The notes beneath the pieces were generated by a model, which saw nothing but the letters and a program-made list of their open reading frames with translations, did no database searches and had not been told where the DNA came from. A stretch of DNA of 34,097 nucleotides from Clostridiales bacterium (GTDB lineage: Bacteria > Bacillota > Clostridia > Lachnospirales > Lachnospiraceae): the NCBI GenBank assembly GCA_012839085.1, contig DUNZ01000149.1, forward strand, positions 1 through 34,097, in the 5' to 3' direction. Both the position numbers and the translations under genes were made by a program. Below, in pieces: positions 4,625-25,704 of the stretch. Position 1 is the first letter of the stretch; each line of letters begins with the position of its first letter.

Positions 4625-4679
4625 ACAAAAAAATAATATTTGCATAACGAAGAATGGTTAGGCATTCGAAGTATAAGAA

Positions 4680-4955
4680 AAGACGTTGAAAAGAAATAGT
4701 AGCATTTTTGATTTCTAACAGAAAGTAGCCGGTTGATGAGAGGCGCGAGAATAAAAAATGTGAATACCTCTTGGAGTTGCGTACCGAAAGGATTATTCAA
4801 GTAGGCTACGACGGAAAGCACACCGTTATCAAGTGCAAGGGTATCGCAGCAGCTGTACTCTGTAAGGTAGGCAATGTGAGTTGTCTATAAACGAAGGTGG
4901 TAACGCGAGATGAACTCTCGTCCTTTTGGAAACATTAGGACGGGAGTTTTTTTAT
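4680..4955 (+). promoter_or_regulatory. T-box leader, tyrosine specific
   Basis: This leader RNA senses uncharged tRNA-Tyr. Stem I includes the AGTAG / TGAA specifier-loop sides flanked by CATTTTT / AAAAATG pairing. The apical region carries GCCGGTTGATGAGAGGC, and the specifier GAA-UAC (UAC at 4765-4767) codes for Tyr. The T-box proper, AAGGTGGTAACGCGAG (~4894-4909), has bulge UGGU, which pairs with an ACCA tRNA end. It differs from the usual GGTGGNACCGCG by one C-to-A change. The antiterminator competes with the terminator at 4913-4953. The gene behind it is tyrS, matching the codon. Confidence 0.92.
4913..4953 (+). terminator. T-box regulated intrinsic terminator
   Basis: AACTCTCGTCCT / AGGACGGGAGTT (12 bp, one G-U) is followed by a 7-T run. 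The 5' strand overlaps the antiterminator, as expected for a T-box attenuator. The ORF-track tyrS start at 4926 lies inside this hairpin and is therefore rejected. Confidence 0.92.
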
Positions 4956-5015
4956 TATTCTTTTCTTATAGAGATTGCAAATATCTATTTGTTTAATTTT
5001 AAGGAGGAAGAAGTT

Positions 5016-6227
5016 ATGTTAACACCACAGGAACAATTAAGAATTATTTGTAAAGGGGTTCAACAATGCGTCAATGAAGAAGAGTTATTTAAAAAATTAG
5101 ATGCTTCTTACAAACAAAAGAAACCACTTACCATTAAACTGGGACTGGATCCTTCTGCGCCAGATATTCATCTTGGGCATGCCGTTGTATTACGGAAAAT
5201 CAAACAAATGCAAGATTTGGGCCATAGGGCTATCATTGTAATCGGCGATTATACTGGTAAGATTGGTGATCCCACAGGAAAATCCAAAGGACGAGTAGCC
5301 CTAAGCGATGAGCAAGTAAAAGAAAACGCATTAACATATTGTGAGCAAATATTTAAGATATTGGATCGACAAAAAACAATAGTCAGATTCAATAGTGAAT
5401 GGCTGTCAAAACTTAATTTTCAAGAGGTGTTACAGCTTGCATCTACTACGACCGTTGCCCGAATGCTGGAACGAGATGATTTTCAAAAACGATATAAGAA
5501 GGGGCTTCCTATTGGACTTCATGAGTTCTTTTATCCTCTGATGCAAGCCTTTGATTCCGTTGAATTAAAGGCAGATATTGAGTTAGGGGGAAGGGATCAA
5601 ACCTTTAACATTCTTATGGGTAGAACCCTTCAAAAAAATTTAGGGCAGGAACAACAAATCGCAATTTTTATGCCCATTCTGGAAGGATTGGACGGAGTTG
5701 AAAAAATGAGCAAAAGTCTCGGTAACTATATTGGTGTAAATGAAGCAGCAGAAGTTATGTTTAAAAAGGTTATGGAGCTTCCAGATGATTTGATCCTTAA
5801 GTACTACGAATTAACCACGGATGTGCATCCTGATGAAATTGATAAAATAAAAAGAGATTTGTTGAAGGGTCTTAACCCAAGAGATATGAAATATCAACTA
5901 GCAAAAATTATAACATCACTCTATCATTCTAAGGAAGTAGTCGAGAAAGCAATGAAATATTATGATGCTGCCTATACTAAAAAAGCAATTCCAGATGATA
6001 TACCAACCTTGCTGATAGAACTTAATATGGATACATTAAATGATGTGATTCCCCAGTTGGTTCATAGAGGATTTGTACAAAGTAAAAGTGAATTTATTCG
6101 ATTGATTCAACAAGATGGAGTTCAAATCAATGGTGAAAAAATCAATCTAGATGATTTGGGCCAAGTATTATATAATTTTGATGTTATTAAGATTGGTAAA
6201 AAGAAGTTTGTAAAAATTATTAAATGA
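5016..6227 (+). CDS. tyrS: Tyrosyl-tRNA synthetase (type 2, TyrZ-like)
   Basis: A 403-residue class I aminoacyl-tRNA synthetase that joins tyrosine to tRNA-Tyr using ATP. The HIGH-like signature is HLGH (residues 52-55 in PSAPDIHLGHAVV). KMSKS is exact (residues 230-234). A C-terminal S4 RNA-binding domain is seen at about 340-403 (FVQSKSEFIRLIQQDGVQING). The sequence GDYTGKIGDPTGKSKGR and overall length fit the type 2 subclass (HAMAP TyrS type 2, as in B. subtilis TyrZ) rather than E. coli-like TyrS. ATG 5016 follows AAGGAGG by 8 nt; the 30 extra codons of the track ORF lie in the T-box terminator. Expression is controlled by the tyrosine T-box. Confidence 0.97.
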   Translation: MLTPQEQLRIICKGVQQCVNEEELFKKLDASYKQKKPLTIKLGLDPSAPDIHLGHAVVLRKIKQMQDLGHRAIIVIGDYTGKIGDPTGKSKGRVALSDEQVKENALTYCEQIFKILDRQKTIVRFNSEWLSKLNFQEVLQLASTTTVARMLERDDFQKRYKKGLPIGLHEFFYPLMQAFDSVELKADIELGGRDQTFNILMGRTLQKNLGQEQQIAIFMPILEGLDGVEKMSKSLGNYIGVNEAAEVMFKKVMELPDDLILKYYELTTDVHPDEIDKIKRDLLKGLNPRDMKYQLAKIITSLYHSKEVVEKAMKYYDAAYTKKAIPDDIPTLLIELNMDTLNDVIPQLVHRGFVQSKSEFIRLIQQDGVQINGEKINLDDLGQVLYNFDVIKIGKKKFVKIIK

Positions 6228-16932: not shown

Positions 16933-17922
16933 ATGAAGAAGATAAAAATCGGGATTATGGGATATGGTAATCTTGGAAAAAGTGTGGAATTAGGGATTTG
17001 TCAAAATAAGGATATGGAACTGGCAGGAATTTTTGTTCGACGAGATCCGGCTACCATAAAAACTTATTCTGAAGACGTTCCGGTATACCATGTTGATGAT
17101 GCAAAAAAGATGGTAAATCAAATCGATGTTATGATTTTATGCGGTGGTAGTATGTCTGATTTACCGGTGCAGGGACCCCTATATGCCAGCATGTTTAATA
17201 CCGTAGATGCCTATGATACCCATGCAAAGATTCCTCAATATTTCGTTTCTGTAAATAAAAATGCTATAGAAGCAGGTAAGGTCTCCATAATCTCTATTGG
17301 ATGGGATCCAGGGGTATTTTCCTTAAATCGTTTGTTTGGTGAAGTGATTTTACCTGAGGGCAATACTTATACATTCTGGGGAAAAGGAATCAGTCAGGGT
17401 CATTCCGATGCTATTAGAAGGGTACAGGGTGTTAAGGATGCAAAACAGTATACAATTCCCCTGGAAAAGGCCATAGAAGCGGTAAGAAAGGGAGAAATGC
17501 CAGAACTTTCTACAAGGGAAAAGCACAAAAGAGTATGCTATGTGGTTGTAGAAGAGGGTGCTGATAAAATAAAGATTGAGCATGAGATAAAAACCATGCC
17601 CAACTATTTTGCGGATTATGATACGGAAGTATATTTCATTTCAGAAGAGGAATTGAATCAAAACCATAGCGGCCTTCCCCATGGTGGATTGGTGATCCGT
17701 TATGGAAAGACTGGAGAGAAACAAGAGCATAACCATGCCATAGAATATCGATTAAATTTGGAGTCAAATCCGGATTTCACGGCCAATGTTTTACTTGCCT
17801 ATGCAAGAGCTGCCTTCCGATTGAATCAAGAAGGGGGATCTGGTGCAAAAACTATTTTAGATATCCCTCCTGCATATCTATCCCCAAAATCAGGAGAGGA
17901 ACTAAGAAAGTATATAATATAA
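16933..17922 (+). CDS. ddh: meso-Diaminopimelate D-dehydrogenase
   Basis: A 329-residue NADPH-dependent enzyme that makes meso-diaminopimelate directly from tetrahydrodipicolinate, bypassing the succinylase, acetylase or aminotransferase steps, for peptidoglycan and lysine. The N-terminal Rossmann loop is GIMGYGNLG (residues 7-15). Family landmarks include LCGGSMSDLPVQGP, NTVDAYDTHAKIP, SIGWDPGVFSLNR, FWGKGISQGHSDAIRR, LPHGG and the C-terminal NPDFTANVLLAYARAA. Length is typical (~325-330). The ATG follows AAGGAAGG. It is monocistronic with its own promoter and sits divergent from trpB. A fragment of an unrelated sugar permease and that gene's terminator follow directly. Confidence 0.96.
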   Translation: MKKIKIGIMGYGNLGKSVELGICQNKDMELAGIFVRRDPATIKTYSEDVPVYHVDDAKKMVNQIDVMILCGGSMSDLPVQGPLYASMFNTVDAYDTHAKIPQYFVSVNKNAIEAGKVSIISIGWDPGVFSLNRLFGEVILPEGNTYTFWGKGISQGHSDAIRRVQGVKDAKQYTIPLEKAIEAVRKGEMPELSTREKHKRVCYVVVEEGADKIKIEHEIKTMPNYFADYDTEVYFISEEELNQNHSGLPHGGLVIRYGKTGEKQEHNHAIEYRLNLESNPDFTANVLLAYARAAFRLNQEGGSGAKTILDIPPAYLSPKSGEELRKYII

Positions 17923-17955: not shown

Positions 17956-18045
17956 ATTAGTATCGATTGGCAACAGGCAATGAAAGGATTTGTACTTTTA
18001 GGTGCAGTTGTTTTCGATGTATATTCAAAATCTAAGACAAAATAA
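17956..18045 (+). pseudogene. C-terminal remnant of a sugar ABC permease (MmsB/GguB/XylH type)
   Basis: Between ddh and the terminator one frame reads IS-DWQQAMKGFVLLGAVVFD, then VYSKSKTK and a stop. This matches the C-terminal tail typical of BPD-transp_2 sugar permeases, where a WQ..IKG.VLL.AV.FDVYNK pattern closes the protein. Upstream in the frame, similarity fades and a TAG occurs just behind the ddh stop, so only about 28 residues remain. There is no start codon with a ribosome binding site. It does not match the tails of the two permeases at the right end of the window. I infer a deletion or rearrangement that brought ddh next to the end of an old sugar-transport operon. Confidence 0.55.
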
Positions 18046-18071: not shown

Positions 18072-18100
18072 AAGAGCAGATGTTTGGGTCTGCTCTTTTT
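18072..18100 (+). terminator. Rho-independent terminator
   Basis: AAGAGCAGA / TCTGCTCTT, a perfect 9-bp stem with an 8-nt loop and TTTTT. It now ends the ddh transcript and probably originally ended the lost permease operon. Confidence 0.85.
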
Positions 18101-18170: not shown

Positions 18171-20921
18171 ATGAAAAAGTTAGTCGTCGGTATTTTAGCC
18201 CATGTGGATGCTGGAAAAACAACACTGGCAGAGAGTATTCTGTATCAGACCGGTCGTATCAGAAAATTGGGTAGAGTTGATCATAAAGATGCCTTTTTAG
18301 ATACCTATGATTTAGAACGTGCAAGAGGAATTACCATCTTTTCAAAACAGGCTCAGGTTACTTTTGATGATATGGAAGTGTCGCTTTTGGATACTCCAGG
18401 GCATGTGGATTTTTCTGGGGAAATGGAACGAACCTTACAGGTTCTTGATTATGCCATACTAGTAATCAGCGGTAGTGATGGGGTTCAAGGTCATACAGAA
18501 ACCTTATGGAAGTTACTAGGGAGGTATCAGATACCAACCTTTCTCTTTATTAATAAGATGGACTTGGAAGGAACAGACCGCCAGTCCCTTATGATAGAGT
18601 TAAAAAAGAGATTACATGATGGCTGTGTGGATTTTGGAGATGATCAGAATCCTAAGGATTTTTATGAAAATATAGCCTTATGTGATGAAAAATTACTAGA
18701 ACAATATATGGAATTGGAAGAGATTAAAACGCAAGAGATTGCTACAGCCATAGAAGAGAGAAGAATTTTTCCTTGCTATTTTGGTTCTGCTCTAAAACTA
18801 GAGGGCGTTGATGATTTTTTATATGGACTTTCCAAGTATACAAAGTCTAAAAAATACCCGGAAGAGTTTGGGGCAAAAGTATATAAAATAGCTAGAGATG
18901 AACAAGGGAATCGTCTAACTTATATGAAGATTACTGGAGGTAACTTAAAGGTAAAAATGCTTCTATCAGACCATTCTTCGCAATGGGCTGAGAAAGTGGA
19001 TCAAATACGAATATATTCTGGGGTAAAATATGATACCGTAGAAGAGCTAAGGGCAGGGGGAGTTTGTGCTGTAGCTGGACTCAGCAAGACATATCCCGGG
19101 GAAGGCCTAGGTATCGAGTCTGGAACCAATATGCCAATATTGGAACCGGTACTAAATTATCAGCTTTTATTACCTGAGGGCTGCGATCCCGTTACTATGT
19201 TATCCAAATTACGGCAGTTAGAAGAAGAAGATCCTTTATTGCATATTGTATGGTCCAGCCATCTTAAAGAGATCCATTTGCAGTTGATGGGTGAGGTGCA
19301 AATTGAGGTTCTCAAAAGCTTGATCTTGGAACGATTTGGGGTAGAAGTAGAATTTGGAACAGGCAACATTTTATATAAGGAGACGATTGCAGAACCAGTC
19401 GTCGGTGTGGGGCATTTTGAACCTTTACGCCATTATGCGGAAGTACATCTATTGTTGGAGCCGGATGAAGCTGGTAGTGGATTGACCTTTGATAGTAATT
19501 GCAGTGAGGACTCACTGGATCGAAATTGGCAGAGGCTGATATTAACACATTTAGAAGAAAAGGAACATCTTGGAGTTTTGACTGGCTCACCAATTACGGA
19601 TATGAAGATAACTCTCATTGCTGGAAGAGCCCATCAAAAGCATACCGAAGGTGGAGATTTTAGACAGGCCACCTATCGAGCTGTGCGACAGGGACTAAAG
19701 AAAGCAAAGAGTATTCTTTTGGAACCCTATTATGATTATAAATTAGAAGTTCCCTCTGAAATGATTGGAAGAGCCATGTCTGATATCCAACGGATGAATG
19801 GGAATTTTAATCCTCCCGAAATCACAGATGATATGTCCATCCTCACAGGAACTGCACCGGTTGCCAGTATGAGGGGGTATCTTTCAGAAGTTACTGCCTA
19901 TACCAAGGGGAGGGGCAGGCTATTCTGCTCCTTGAAAGGTTATTTGCCCTGCCATAATCCTGAGGAAGTCATAGAAAGTATTGCTTATGATAGTGAACGG
20001 GATTTGGATAATCCAACAGGATCTGTATTTTGTTCCCATGGGGCTGGTTTTCTTGTTCCCTGGAATCAAGTAGAAAATTATATGCATATTGACAATGGCT
20101 ACGATCCAGGAAATCTGCAAGAAAAACGTATAGAATCCTTGAATGAGGCTAAGACCTTATTTCAAGAAGAATGGAAGGACTTATCAAAGACGATTCAAAA
20201 GGAAGGGAAAAATGCCCAGGTTAGCAGTAAAACAAGATCTTATCCGTCTACTTCCTTAGAAGAGGATAAAGAGTTAGAGGATATCTTTGTTCGAACCTTT
20301 GGTCCAATTAAACAAAGGATCAGCCATTCTCAAAATCGTCTAGGATATGAAAAGGCTACAAGGATAGATTTAAGTCAAAGAAAACAAAAGAACAATAATG
20401 GGGACAAGGATTCTAGGAAAGAATATCTGCTGGTTGATGGATATAACATCATATTTGCCTGGGAGGAATTAAGTGAACTTGCCAAGGAGAATATGGATGC
20501 AGCAAGAAATAAGCTGATGGATATTCTTTGTAATTATCAAGGATTTAAACAATGTGTGCTCATTCTAGTCTTTGATGCATACAAAGTAAAGGGTGGAGTT
20601 GGGCAGATAATGGACTACCACAACATCCATGTGGTTTATACCAAAGAAGCAGAAACTGCGGATGAGTATATAGAGAAAGTTACCCATGAAATGGCCAGTA
20701 AACACCAAGTGACGGTTGCCACATCGGATGCATTGGAACAATTAATCATCATGGGGCAGGGTGCAACAAGGCTGTCTGCCAAAGATTTAAAGGAAGAAAT
20801 CATTCGAACCTGGGATCAGATTCAAAGTGATTATTTGAACAAGCAGGCTTCGGGGCGAAGTTATCTGGGGGATCAATTTGATGAAACACTTTTGGAGTTT
20901 TTAAAGAAAGGTTATAATTAA
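18171..20921 (+). CDS. Tet(M)/EF-G-like ribosomal GTPase fused to a C-terminal YacP/Rae1-type NYN nuclease domain
   Basis: A 916-residue fusion. Residues 1-~690 form a Tet(M)/Tet(O)-type translation GTPase: P-loop AHVDAGKTT (10-18), RGITI switch I, DTPGH, NKMD, then domain II, EF-G domains III-IV and a domain V with LLEPYYDYKLEVPSEMIGRA. Tet(M) itself is ~640 residues. After a charged linker (~690-750) comes a YacP-like NYN domain (~752-916). It keeps VDGYN (D756, N759), VFDAYKVKGG (D802), ETADEYIEK (D831) and TSD (D853), the acidic set of NYN nucleases. B. subtilis YacP is Rae1, which cuts mRNA in the ribosomal A site. ATG follows GGAGA. The gene is monocistronic. It probably acts on stalled or antibiotic-bound ribosomes; whether it gives tetracycline resistance cannot be told. 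Confidence 0.92.
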   Translation: MKKLVVGILAHVDAGKTTLAESILYQTGRIRKLGRVDHKDAFLDTYDLERARGITIFSKQAQVTFDDMEVSLLDTPGHVDFSGEMERTLQVLDYAILVISGSDGVQGHTETLWKLLGRYQIPTFLFINKMDLEGTDRQSLMIELKKRLHDGCVDFGDDQNPKDFYENIALCDEKLLEQYMELEEIKTQEIATAIEERRIFPCYFGSALKLEGVDDFLYGLSKYTKSKKYPEEFGAKVYKIARDEQGNRLTYMKITGGNLKVKMLLSDHSSQWAEKVDQIRIYSGVKYDTVEELRAGGVCAVAGLSKTYPGEGLGIESGTNMPILEPVLNYQLLLPEGCDPVTMLSKLRQLEEEDPLLHIVWSSHLKEIHLQLMGEVQIEVLKSLILERFGVEVEFGTGNILYKETIAEPVVGVGHFEPLRHYAEVHLLLEPDEAGSGLTFDSNCSEDSLDRNWQRLILTHLEEKEHLGVLTGSPITDMKITLIAGRAHQKHTEGGDFRQATYRAVRQGLKKAKSILLEPYYDYKLEVPSEMIGRAMSDIQRMNGNFNPPEITDDMSILTGTAPVASMRGYLSEVTAYTKGRGRLFCSLKGYLPCHNPEEVIESIAYDSERDLDNPTGSVFCSHGAGFLVPWNQVENYMHIDNGYDPGNLQEKRIESLNEAKTLFQEEWKDLSKTIQKEGKNAQVSSKTRSYPSTSLEEDKELEDIFVRTFGPIKQRISHSQNRLGYEKATRIDLSQRKQKNNNGDKDSRKEYLLVDGYNIIFAWEELSELAKENMDAARNKLMDILCNYQGFKQCVLILVFDAYKVKGGVGQIMDYHNIHVVYTKEAETADEYIEKVTHEMASKHQVTVATSDALEQLIIMGQGATRLSAKDLKEEIIRTWDQIQSDYLNKQASGRSYLGDQFDETLLEFLKKGYN

Positions 20922-21023: not shown

Positions 21024-21179
21024 ATAATGGGGCTGTCGCACTAAATGTGCGACGCCCTTTTTACATTAATGATGTTTTAAATTTAAAAAAATAGCGTGTG
21101 ACTATCCATCCAACAGAGACACGTTCTCACTCGATTGCCGCACATAGCGATTCAATCGTTAAAGCAACAGCCCCATTAT
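21024..21179. repeat. 156-bp segment bounded by 13-bp perfect inverted repeats
   Basis: ATAATGGGGCTGT at the left end and ACAGCCCCATTAT at the right end are exact complements. The interior holds the plus-strand terminator and a small CGATT-g-AATCG-like hairpin. It lies between convergent genes. It could be a paired terminator or a small MITE-like element; no target-site duplication was recognised. Confidence 0.6.
21029..21062 (+). terminator. Rho-independent terminator of the GTPase fusion
   Basis: GGGC-T-GTCGCAC / GTGCGAC-GCCC with one bulged T, then TTTTT. The stem is strong and GC-rich compared with its surroundings. Confidence 0.9.
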
Positions 21180-21202: not shown

Positions 21203-22108
21203 CTAGGATTCGGTCTCTATTTCATGAATTATTTCGTAATTTCTTTTTAAAACATTTTTGCCTCTCCAGCTAAAAGAACGATCCTGATATTTTTTCGTAA
21301 AAGCTTTGTTGGAAAGTTGGCATAATTCCTCATAATCAAGATGGTAGAGTAAATTTTCCTGAAACTCCTTAAGTTTCGTCTTTTCTATTTTACGATTATG
21401 GGGACAGACCTCCTGACATACATCACAGCCCCAAATCAGGGAATGTTTTTTTATGATCTCTTTTTCCCTTGATGAAAGTTCTTGTTTTTTCTGGGTGATG
21501 TATGATTTGCATTGTAAGGGATTTATGGTAAAATCCCCTATTATGCATTGACCTGGACATTTTCTCACACATTCCATGCATTGAATACAGGTTCGCTCCA
21601 AGGGCTGATCTGCTTCAAAGGGGAAATTGTTCAGGAGATATCCAATAAAAACATAGGAGCCATAAGAATCCGTGATGAGATGATTGTTTATTCCCCAGAA
21701 ACCTAGTCCGGCCTTATAGGCTAAATATCGATCGCTAAAGGGACCAGTGTCTACAAAGGCCTTATATTCAAAATTATCGATTGTTTCTTGTAAATAATGG
21801 CCGATGACCTCCAGTTTCTCTTTAACGATTCGATGATAATCAGTACTAAAGGCTGATTTTGTTAGGTTGGCATCTTCACCATTACCAATATAATATGGAA
21901 ACAAACAAACAATTACAGATTTTGCATCGGGTAAGGTTAGGTCTGGATATATTCTTTTCTTTATATCTTTTTCTTCAAATCCGCTGATGTAACCCCGCTC
22001 GATCTGTTTTTTCCAAATCCTTTCAAAATCGTAATAGGGTTTGGCTGGCGCGATTCCAACAGCATCGATATGAATTGATTTGCAAAATTCAATTAATTTA
22101 TCTTTCAT
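21203..22108 (-). CDS. queG: Epoxyqueuosine reductase
   Basis: A 301-residue cobalamin- and iron-sulfur-dependent enzyme that reduces epoxyqueuosine to queuosine in the wobble position of tRNAs. Seen are the N-terminal IDAVGIAPAKP, the conserved FVDTGPFSDRYLAYKAGLGFWG substrate/cobalamin segment, and two 4Fe-4S motifs: CIQCMECVRKCP with a further Cys, and CDVCQEVCPHN. The length is shorter than E. coli QueG (~380), as in the short clostridial form lacking the C-terminal HEAT repeats. The track ORF starts at ATG 22156, but a promoter-like TATACT overlaps that start and no Shine-Dalgarno precedes it. ATG 22108 (MKDKLIEFCKS), preceded by GGGATGG, is preferred. It is a monocistronic minus-strand gene convergent with the GTPase fusion. 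Confidence 0.92.
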   Translation of the reverse strand: MKDKLIEFCKSIHIDAVGIAPAKPYYDFERIWKKQIERGYISGFEEKDIKKRIYPDLTLPDAKSVIVCLFPYYIGNGEDANLTKSAFSTDYHRIVKEKLEVIGHYLQETIDNFEYKAFVDTGPFSDRYLAYKAGLGFWGINNHLITDSYGSYVFIGYLLNNFPFEADQPLERTCIQCMECVRKCPGQCIIGDFTINPLQCKSYITQKKQELSSREKEIIKKHSLIWGCDVCQEVCPHNRKIEKTKLKEFQENLLYHLDYEELCQLSNKAFTKKYQDRSFSWRGKNVLKRNYEIIHEIETES

Positions 22109-22145
22109 AATAATCCATCCCATCGGTATATTTTGTCTACTAAAT

Positions 22146-22174
22146 AGTATACTCATTAACAGAGGTTTTTTCCA
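22146..22174 (-). promoter_or_regulatory. Promoter of queG
   Basis: Minus strand: TGGAAA (4 of 6), a 17-bp spacer, TATACT (5 of 6). The predicted start near 22139 lies downstream of the ORF-track ATG, supporting translation from 22108. Confidence 0.5.
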
Positions 22175-24104: not shown

Positions 24105-24114
24105 AGGGGAAACA

Positions 24115-24320
24115 TCTCCGAATATCATGTTTTGGTAGTGGGGGACCCAATATTAGGGGTGAATCTTTGGTATGGAAGAGCTATGCAACAGGGACGAATC
24201 GTTGCAAAGATAATAATCCAACAAATAAGTTGGATTTTTAAAAGCCAAATAGACATACAAGGAGGGGCGAACTTGGTAGCCCTAACCCGTCAGCTAATCC
24301 CATAGGAGTAAACCAAGCGT
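24115..24320 (+). promoter_or_regulatory. c-di-AMP riboswitch (ydaO/yuaA class)
   Basis: The class signatures are present in order: GGGGGACCCAA then GGGGTGAATC (~24140-24165), and further 3' AACCCGTCAGCTAATCCCATAGG (~24285-24308), followed by AAACCAAGCG, which can pair with TTTTGGT at the 5' side to close P1. Between them is a variable helix AATCCAAC / GTTGGATT followed by TTT. In this class c-di-AMP binding favours termination, and K+ or cation transporters and cell-wall genes are the usual targets. The downstream gene is a cation/proton antiporter, fitting that regulon. Confidence 0.9.
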
Positions 24321-24363
24321 ATGACGAAACTCAATTTATTGAGTGGGTTTATTCGCTTTTTTT
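24318..24363 (+). terminator. Riboswitch expression-platform terminator
   Basis: GCG...ACTCAAT / ATTGAGT...CGC followed by TTTTTTTT. The 5' arm begins within the end of the aptamer P1 strand (AAGCG), giving the overlap needed for ligand-controlled termination. Confidence 0.85.
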
Positions 24364-24477: not shown

Positions 24478-25704
24478 TTGGATTTACTTTTGAAAATTAG
24501 TATCGTATTGTTGGTAGGGGTAATCGGTGGGAAAGTGGCGAAAATTTTTAAACTTCCTAATGTATCAGGTTATTTAGTTGCTGGTTTATTTCTAGGACCC
24601 TCATTTTTTGGGTTTATCAGTGGACAAGATATCGAAACATTTTCAGTAATAAATGAATTGGCCTTAGCGGTAATTGCCTTTAGTATTGGAAATGAGTTTA
24701 TTCTTAAAGATATGTTAAAGTTAGGAAAATCTATAGTAATCATAACTTTAACTGAGGTTGTGGGTGCTGTAGCCCTAGTTTTTTCTGTAATGTATTTCGT
24801 GTTTCATCAGTCATTTGCCTTTAGTATCGTTATTGCTTCCATGTCAGCAGCCACAGCGCCTGCAGCTACTCTCTTAGTAATTCGGCAGTACAAAGCCAAA
24901 GGACCATTAACAAAAACAATACTGCCGGTTGTAGCTTTGGATGATGTATTTGGTATTATTGCATTTGGTATTGCTATGTCTTTGGCAAAATTATCGATTG
25001 GACAAGAAAAGTTTTCAATTACAAAAATGATAAGTGAACCGTTGATTGAAATAGGAGGGTCTATTTTACTGGGGTTTGTTCTAGGTTTATTGCTGGTTAT
25101 AGCGGCAAAGAAGTCCAAAGGTCGTGATGAACGTCAGGCTATATCCCTGGTGGCCATTGGGGTAGCAACTGGTATTTCCAATTGGCTAGGATTATCCCCC
25201 TTATTAACTAGTATTATGATGGGAACCACCATGGTGAATATGTTACATAGTTCAAAAAAGGTGTTTGACTCTGTCAATGATTTTGTTAACCCTGTATATA
25301 TCTTATTTTTTACTTTAGCTGGTGCAAGTTTGGATTTAAGTATATTAGCATCGGTTGGATTGTTAGGGGTGGCATATGTTATTTCCAGAGCAGGAGGAAA
25401 AATCATCGGTGCCTGGTGCGGGGCAAAAGCTGTAAAAACAGATCCTATGGTAAGAAAATATCTGGGATTTGCCTTACTTCCCCAGGGAGGTATATCCATT
25501 GGCTTAATTGTATTGGTTCGCCAACAATTACCGGAATTGTCGACTGCAATTAGTACCATAATTATGTTTAGCGTATTAATCTATGAGGTATCTGGTCCAA
25601 TATTTGCTAAGCTTGCCATTCAAAAAGCAGGTGAAATTAAGGATATAGGAAGCAAGGAAGAAAGCCATGAGAGAAAGAAAATAAAAACGGTAGAAGCTTC
25701 TTAG
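24478..25704 (+). CDS. CPA2-family monovalent cation:proton antiporter (KefB/GerN-like membrane domain)
   Basis: A 408-residue integral membrane protein with about 11-12 hydrophobic spans and no cytosolic RCK/TrkA_N domain. Seen are the N-terminal KLPNVSGYLVAGLFLGPSFFG typical of CPA2 proteins, the SMSAATAPAATLLVIRQYKAKGPLT stretch, LDDVFGIIAFGI containing the paired acidic residues (DD) of the ion site, and a C-terminal polar tail. It exchanges K+ or Na+ for protons at the cell membrane. TTG start with GGAGG 7 nt upstream. It is behind a c-di-AMP riboswitch, which argues for a role in K+ or osmotic balance; ion selectivity cannot be told from sequence. Confidence 0.9.
   Translation: MDLLLKISIVLLVGVIGGKVAKIFKLPNVSGYLVAGLFLGPSFFGFISGQDIETFSVINELALAVIAFSIGNEFILKDMLKLGKSIVIITLTEVVGAVALVFSVMYFVFHQSFAFSIVIASMSAATAPAATLLVIRQYKAKGPLTKTILPVVALDDVFGIIAFGIAMSLAKLSIGQEKFSITKMISEPLIEIGGSILLGFVLGLLLVIAAKKSKGRDERQAISLVAIGVATGISNWLGLSPLLTSIMMGTTMVNMLHSSKKVFDSVNDFVNPVYILFFTLAGASLDLSILASVGLLGVAYVISRAGGKIIGAWCGAKAVKTDPMVRKYLGFALLPQGGISIGLIVLVRQQLPELSTAISTIIMFSVLIYEVSGPIFAKLAIQKAGEIKDIGSKEESHERKKIKTVEAS

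Follow-up and report, generated by a model that had tools for sequence, protein, structure and literature searches.

A translational GTPase-Rae1 fusion that is apparently the only Rae1 of the cell in a Lachnospiraceae bacterium

Introduction

Rae1 (YacP) of Bacillus subtilis is small, stands alone with no GTPase attached and is described as a nuclease that acts in the A site when ribosomes stall (PMC6613710; PMC10100781; PMC12320835). The A site is shared ground for this nuclease and for domain IV of EF-G-type GTPases, both of which act there (PMC7456112; PMC6613710; PMC12320835). The joining of a YacP-like NYN domain to a translational GTPase was noted in one paragraph by Atkinson 2015 (PMC4342817), who described this Tet-NYN architecture in ten Clostridiales species, filed the GTPase under "Tet" and suggested an antibiotic-resistance mechanism. 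The gene analysed here has the same architecture, belongs to the same bacterial group and is very probably a member of that set. A targeted literature search found no experimental study of the fusion; later mentions may exist. The first-pass annotation of this DNA, which knew of no experimental description of such a protein, therefore stands as far as experiments are concerned, but the architecture itself had been mentioned (PMC4342817). New here are the status of the fusion as the resident Rae1, the separateness of its GTPase family from Tet(M) and an unusual constraint on domain IV. In contrast to the Tet assignment of Atkinson 2015, the GTPase falls outside the clade of ribosomal protection proteins (RPPs), in a protein that appears to replace the Rae1 of the cell.

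Results and Discussion

Domain organization of the fusion protein

The window, by which we mean the whole stretch of 34,097 nucleotides that was analysed, carries the fusion gene at 18171..20921 on the forward strand, on which all of the gene's features given below also lie. The ORF call and Pfam agree on a translational GTPase-Rae1 fusion of 916 aa, read in one intact frame with an ATG start and no internal stops, which confirms the natural fusion of an EF-G-like GTPase with a YacP-type NYN domain proposed in the first-pass annotation. A frameshift or assembly join is excluded by the recurrence of the same long frame across the majority of the family's genera and in numerous further families, among them finished single-contig genomes; about nine tenths of the family matches listed have a frame of ~850-1,040 aa.

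The G domain (residues 1-224; 18171..18842) is matched by Pfam GTP_EFTU over residues 5-224 (6e-50) and contains the P-loop AHVDAGKTT, the switch 1 motif RGIT, DTPGHVDF and NKMD; the residues of the P-loop, switch 1, DTPGH and NKMD are unchanged across 41 aligned diverse fusions. EF-G-like domain II (residues 234-307; 18870..19091) rests on a weak EF-G_D2 match under the Pfam cut-off and on strands in the model, and is followed by domains III (338-396; 19182..19358; EFG_III, 2e-7), IV (399-513; 19365..19709; EFG_IV, 9e-19) and V (516-596; 19716..19958; EFG_C, 1e-17). The G1-G5 motifs and the EF-G domain series are present, as had been claimed, but the series ends near residue 596 and not at ~690. 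The AlphaFold2 model of the full-length protein has a mean pLDDT of 82.9 and resembles EF-G structures. Fold and G motifs are common to EF-G and the GTPase half, which is a single-copy accessory paralogue alongside the true EF-G.

Domain V is followed by a family-specific extension (residues 597-640; 19959..20090) that is conserved in the fusions with the pattern HNPEEVI..SVFCSHGAGF..W..V..YMH and is also kept in NYN-less relatives, most of which terminate shortly beyond it. A metal site in this region, formed by C594 and C621 with histidines, was considered and rejected, the histidines not being conserved. The linker (residues 641-750; 20091..20420) is poorly conserved and is predicted in the AlphaFold2 model to be helical for the most part and then disordered (679-698 and 714-747; pLDDT below 50). 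Among the 41 fusions its length, measured from W631 to D756, varies from 80 to 131 residues, and its mean identity is 13-15% outside one short motif, ELxxIFxRTYG (residues 701-712; 20271..20306), in which E701 is found in 41/41, I705 in 38/41 and T709 in 38/41 aligned sequences. This motif is possibly a docking element.

The C-terminal domain (residues 753-913; 20427..20909) was identified as a Rae1/YacP NYN nuclease domain by Pfam, phmmer and Foldseek. NYN_YacP matches it with 178 bits (2e-52) against a cut-off of 24.6, covering profile positions 1-163 of 166, and phmmer aligns it with B. subtilis Rae1 (5mq9) at E 2.3e-25. The predicted fold, which had been presumed YacP-like, has 5mq9 (E 1.7e-12) and 5mq8 as its best Foldseek matches, the Rae1 fold. 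The four acidic residues listed in the first-pass annotation, D756 (20436..20438), D802 (20574..20576), D831 (20661..20663) and D853 (20727..20729), align with D7, D53, D81 and D104 of Rae1, respectively, and together with N759 and E835 they are unchanged in the 41 fusions. The Rae1 domain of the fusion thus has the same fold and acids as the B. subtilis protein and is apparently active.

The fusion as the resident Rae1

In a class-level sample of 196 genomes, YacP was found in 128, fused in 69 and standalone in 59, and no genome had both forms. Two of these genomes gave two YacP matches; one, a bin of 61% completeness, has the fusion twice, and in the other the second match is below threshold. 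Fusions are rarer in the phylum-level sample (about nine, in families f72, f76, f123 and f135), again with no genome carrying both. In the family-level sample of 200 genera the fusion is near-universal, with about 80% of them carrying it, and such a spread fits a core factor; the few genomes with two matches include one (G154) with a duplicated contig. These counts bear out the surmise that the gene is common in Clostridia. Twenty of the 200 genera have neither YacP nor the GTPase, and the factor is therefore dispensable.

The genomic position of yacP tells a parallel story. Standalone yacP follows rlmB in 19/23 loci and lies beside sigH in 17/23, and this ancestral rlmB-yacP-sigH locus makes B. 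subtilis Rae1 apparently orthologous to the NYN domain of the fusion. Among 17 fusion genomes in which rlmB was located, yacP lies downstream of it in none and sigH is directly next in 11, the source genome among them. The source genome (89.9% complete) has the fusion and no separate yacP; its rlmB is followed after a gap of 52 bp by sigH, the identities of both having been verified by Pfam, and yacP is absent from the slot. Because the rlmB-sigH slot lacks yacP in fusion genomes, the fusion appears to be the sole Rae1 of the cell, and because sigH now stands next to rlmB, the fused copy would have replaced the ancestral gene. The simplest history is that yacP moved onto the GTPase and the original copy was then lost. 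An origin of the standalone NYN proteins of Lachnospiraceae by fission of a fusion, which the NYN tree neither supports nor opposes, is not favoured, since most of them sit at the ancestral rlmB locus.

No conserved operon partners were found among 43 fusion loci. In the window the gene is flanked by a diaminopimelate dehydrogenase gene (16933-17922, +) and a gene for a QueG-like epoxyqueuosine reductase (21203-22156, -), neither of which is a conserved neighbour. An intrinsic terminator-like hairpin, recognized by sequence pattern only, lies downstream at 21034..21054 (+), and the fusion gene looks monocistronic.

GTPase and nuclease together and apart

A maximum-likelihood tree built from 70 sequences unites the fusions and their NYN-less relatives in a 58-row clade (100/100). 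The fusions have a single origin (100/99), after which the architecture was kept across many families. Their sister group (100/97 and 100/99) is NYN-less by ancestry and comprises proteins of Clostridiaceae, Peptostreptococcaceae and Neobacillus as well as some from Lachnospiraceae. Nested within the fusion clade (100/96) is a second NYN-less group, whose members come from Bifidobacterium and Collinsella and from a megaplasmid of Ligilactobacillus salivarius; it is best read as the product of transfer followed by nuclease loss. The NYN-less proteins are of the same subfamily as the fusion, sharing the K-H-T signature described below, the HT loop and the extension, but have neither the linker motif nor the nuclease; they are natural controls for the role of each half. 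The L. salivarius gene (L293:3530-5920), annotated as a tetracycline-resistance protein, adjoins an extra rpsN (ribosomal protein S14).

A strict dependence of the GTPase on the NYN domain was considered and rejected, given GTPase-only genomes (G228, G261, G381, G233 and G277); three clostridial families (f31, f36 and f19) have genomes that carry the GTPase but lack YacP altogether. The NYN domain likewise occurs in many genomes without such a GTPase. Since each half is found alone, neither strictly needs the other, and GTPase and nuclease can each be selected on their own. One natural variant (G135, L150:5858-7900, -) has lost domains IV and V and keeps the G domain, a stretch like the linker motif and the NYN domain. 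Another genome (G099) has a separate GTPase gene with an interrupting stop codon (L129:6638-8215, -) and a standalone NYN protein, and its lineage may be losing the GTPase.

Domain IV and a proposed mechanism

The distribution of sequence constraint sets the family apart from EF-G. Mean pairwise identity among the fusions is 0.72 in domain IV and 0.65 in the G core, with corresponding values of 0.63 and 0.55 in the NYN-less relatives, whereas 55 EF-Gs of many phyla gave 0.51 and 0.69. Domain IV is therefore the most conserved region in the fusion family and the least conserved in EF-G. The natural reading of this pattern is that domain IV, the decoding-centre arm of EF-G, has a fixed ribosomal or ligand target.

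A role in ribosome quality control or rescue, as the first-pass annotation had it, is plausible and is the reading that we prefer. We propose that the fusion serves as a resident factor for ribosome rescue or mRNA surveillance in which the sole Rae1 of the cell is tethered to a distinct EF-G-like GTPase, and we rate the chances of this at about even. The GTPase would bind ribosomes whose A site is empty or blocked, where domain IV may probe or clear the decoding centre; once GTP has been hydrolysed and the GTPase has withdrawn, the NYN domain on its tether would enter the same A site and cut the mRNA, and ribosome release (by tmRNA, for example) and decay of the message would follow. The nuclease would in this way be coupled to the GTPase. 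Simultaneous action of the two halves on one ribosome is unlikely because both should need the same A site; the flexible linker of ~100 residues would permit sequential action, the alternative being action on a neighbouring ribosome. A more far-reaching version is offered tentatively and falls short of being probable: Rae1 would normally take this form across much of Lachnospiraceae and related Clostridia, as a GTP-driven, mRNA-cutting rescue factor on a single polypeptide whose specialised domain IV tests or clears the A site before its own nuclease cuts. Should the proposed reading be right, much of the gut Clostridia would carry out A-site mRNA surveillance by means of a GTPase-nuclease, which would provide a direct handle on how Rae1 chooses its ribosomes. 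In favour of the proposal are the unchanged GTPase motifs and NYN acids of the 41 fusions, the absence of genomes with both fused and standalone YacP from the class and phylum samples, the replacement of the ancestral gene, the near-universal occurrence in the family sample, the constraint on domain IV and the A-site activity described for B. subtilis Rae1. The separability of the halves, the variant devoid of domains IV and V and the 20 of 200 genera that lack the factor all count against the proposal.

Much of the same evidence is what one would cite for two independent activities carried on one chain, in which the NYN domain performs the codon-dependent mRNA decay of Rae1 and the GTPase has a separate job, such as aiding translocation, recycling or clearing of A-site ligands, with the fusion ensuring co-expression and tethering to the ribosome but no coupling of the two reactions. 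The occurrence of both halves alone in many genomes, the retention of the NYN domain in the variant without domains IV and V, and a linker that is long, variable and largely disordered all speak for such an arrangement. The single origin of the fusion with its subsequent retention in many families, and the presence of a conserved motif inside an otherwise unconserved linker, speak against it. We regard independent activities as a serious alternative to the rescue or surveillance factor, if a rather unlikely one.

Relation to tetracycline ribosomal protection proteins

The reading implied by Atkinson 2015 and by some RefSeq records, in which members of the fusion family are named as of the TetM/TetW/TetO/TetS family, is that of a tetracycline-resistance RPP with an added nuclease. 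The likeness on which it draws is real: Tet(M), Tet(O) and Tet(W), like the fusion, have EF-G-like domains I-V without RNA-binding additions and a loop III of equal length. They are, however, only ~31-33% identical to the GTPase of the fusion and belong to a distinct clade. With the NCBIfam models NF012153 and NF033148 the fusion scores 425.7 against a cut-off of 775 and 295.1 against 1100, respectively, below both cut-offs, and is no better on the tetracycline-protection model than ordinary EF-Gs, which reach roughly 385-425 bits. In the tree of 70 sequences, the true RPPs and their nearest relatives form a clade of their own (98/89) beside the one containing the fusions and not around it, the RPP side being a narrow sample of Tet(M/W/O)-like sequences and one more distant member in which tet(Q), tetB(P), otr(A), tet(T) and tet(36) are thinly represented. 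Three RPP-like GTPases (L203, L274 and L275, one of them from Paenibacillus jilunlii) with H-T or H-S in loop III are sister to the true RPPs and lie under the tetracycline-protection cut-off where scored.

The tip of domain IV loop III, GRAHQKHTEGGDF (residues 485-497; 19623..19661, +), aligns without gaps to Tet(M) and Tet(O). K490-H491-T492, present in 41/41 fusions, is aligned with P509-V510-S511 of Tet(M), so that the S508-P509-V510 tip faces Q489-K490-H491, the first position being Q, L or N among the fusions; true RPPs retain YYSPVSTPADF. The exchange of S-P-V for an invariant K-H is a point against tetracycline protection, but on its own it proves nothing, because a Tet(M) S508A P509A V510A mutant is still active (PMC4750697), and we dropped the loop III change as a proof. 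Other differences point the same way: the C-terminal helix of Tet(M) is replaced in the fusion by a different extension, the distribution of the fusion is vertical, near-universal and chromosomal, and four class-sample genomes (G225, G234, G247 and G350) as well as G035 have an RPP scoring above cut-off besides the fusion. Tetracycline protection by the fusion is accordingly improbable, and the GTPase half is, as judged from these comparisons, not a tetracycline-protection protein but a member of a family separate from Tet(M). The equation of the GTPase half with Tet(M) in the first-pass annotation is thus not upheld, and its suggestion of a drug-bound ribosome as the target is not favoured, because the GTPase scores at about the level of EF-G and branches outside the Tet(M/W/O) group. 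The fusion is misnamed in several public records, which matters for resistance surveillance, as family members bear tetracycline-resistance names although they score below all curated cut-offs and fall outside the resistance clade.

Other possible roles

The ancestral neighbours of yacP include rlmB and mrnC, whose products act on rRNA, and the NYN domain could be imagined to process rRNA or tRNA, with the GTPase carrying it to ribosomes or precursors. Such processing was predicted early on for NYN domains (cited in PMC4342817), but the substrate of B. subtilis Rae1 is mRNA in the course of translation (PMC6613710; PMC10100781) and the NYN domain of the fusion has the same key acids and fold, which makes this role very improbable. 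Least probable of all is a role in defence or as a toxin-like effector aimed at the ribosome, for instance in abortive infection, which the union of a ribosome-directed nuclease with a GTPase sensor might suggest: an identity as a defence system was rejected as no PADLOC model matched, the 43 loci have neither conserved neighbours nor a defence context, and the distribution is that of a conserved core gene.

Upstream region and other elements of the window

A strong intrinsic terminator (18072-18097, +) lies 74 nt upstream of the fusion start and is itself preceded by a short ORF, MKGFVLLGAVVFDVYSKSKTK, at 17980-18045. An attenuator at this position was considered and rejected, as the nearest relatives have no conserved equivalent. 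Some other fusion genes have terminators no more than 60 nt from the start, counted in 4/24 against 0/102 (overall p 0.035), a weak and post hoc enrichment, and attenuation of the fusion gene in some species is possible. A candidate promoter, TTGCAT-N17-TATTAT, was recognized by eye between terminator and start and is absent from the consensus-scan listing. Elsewhere in the window, a T-box leader (4677-4928, +) lies upstream of the ORF at 4926-6227, and a c-di-AMP riboswitch (24106-24324, +) precedes a sodium/hydrogen exchanger gene (24478-25704).
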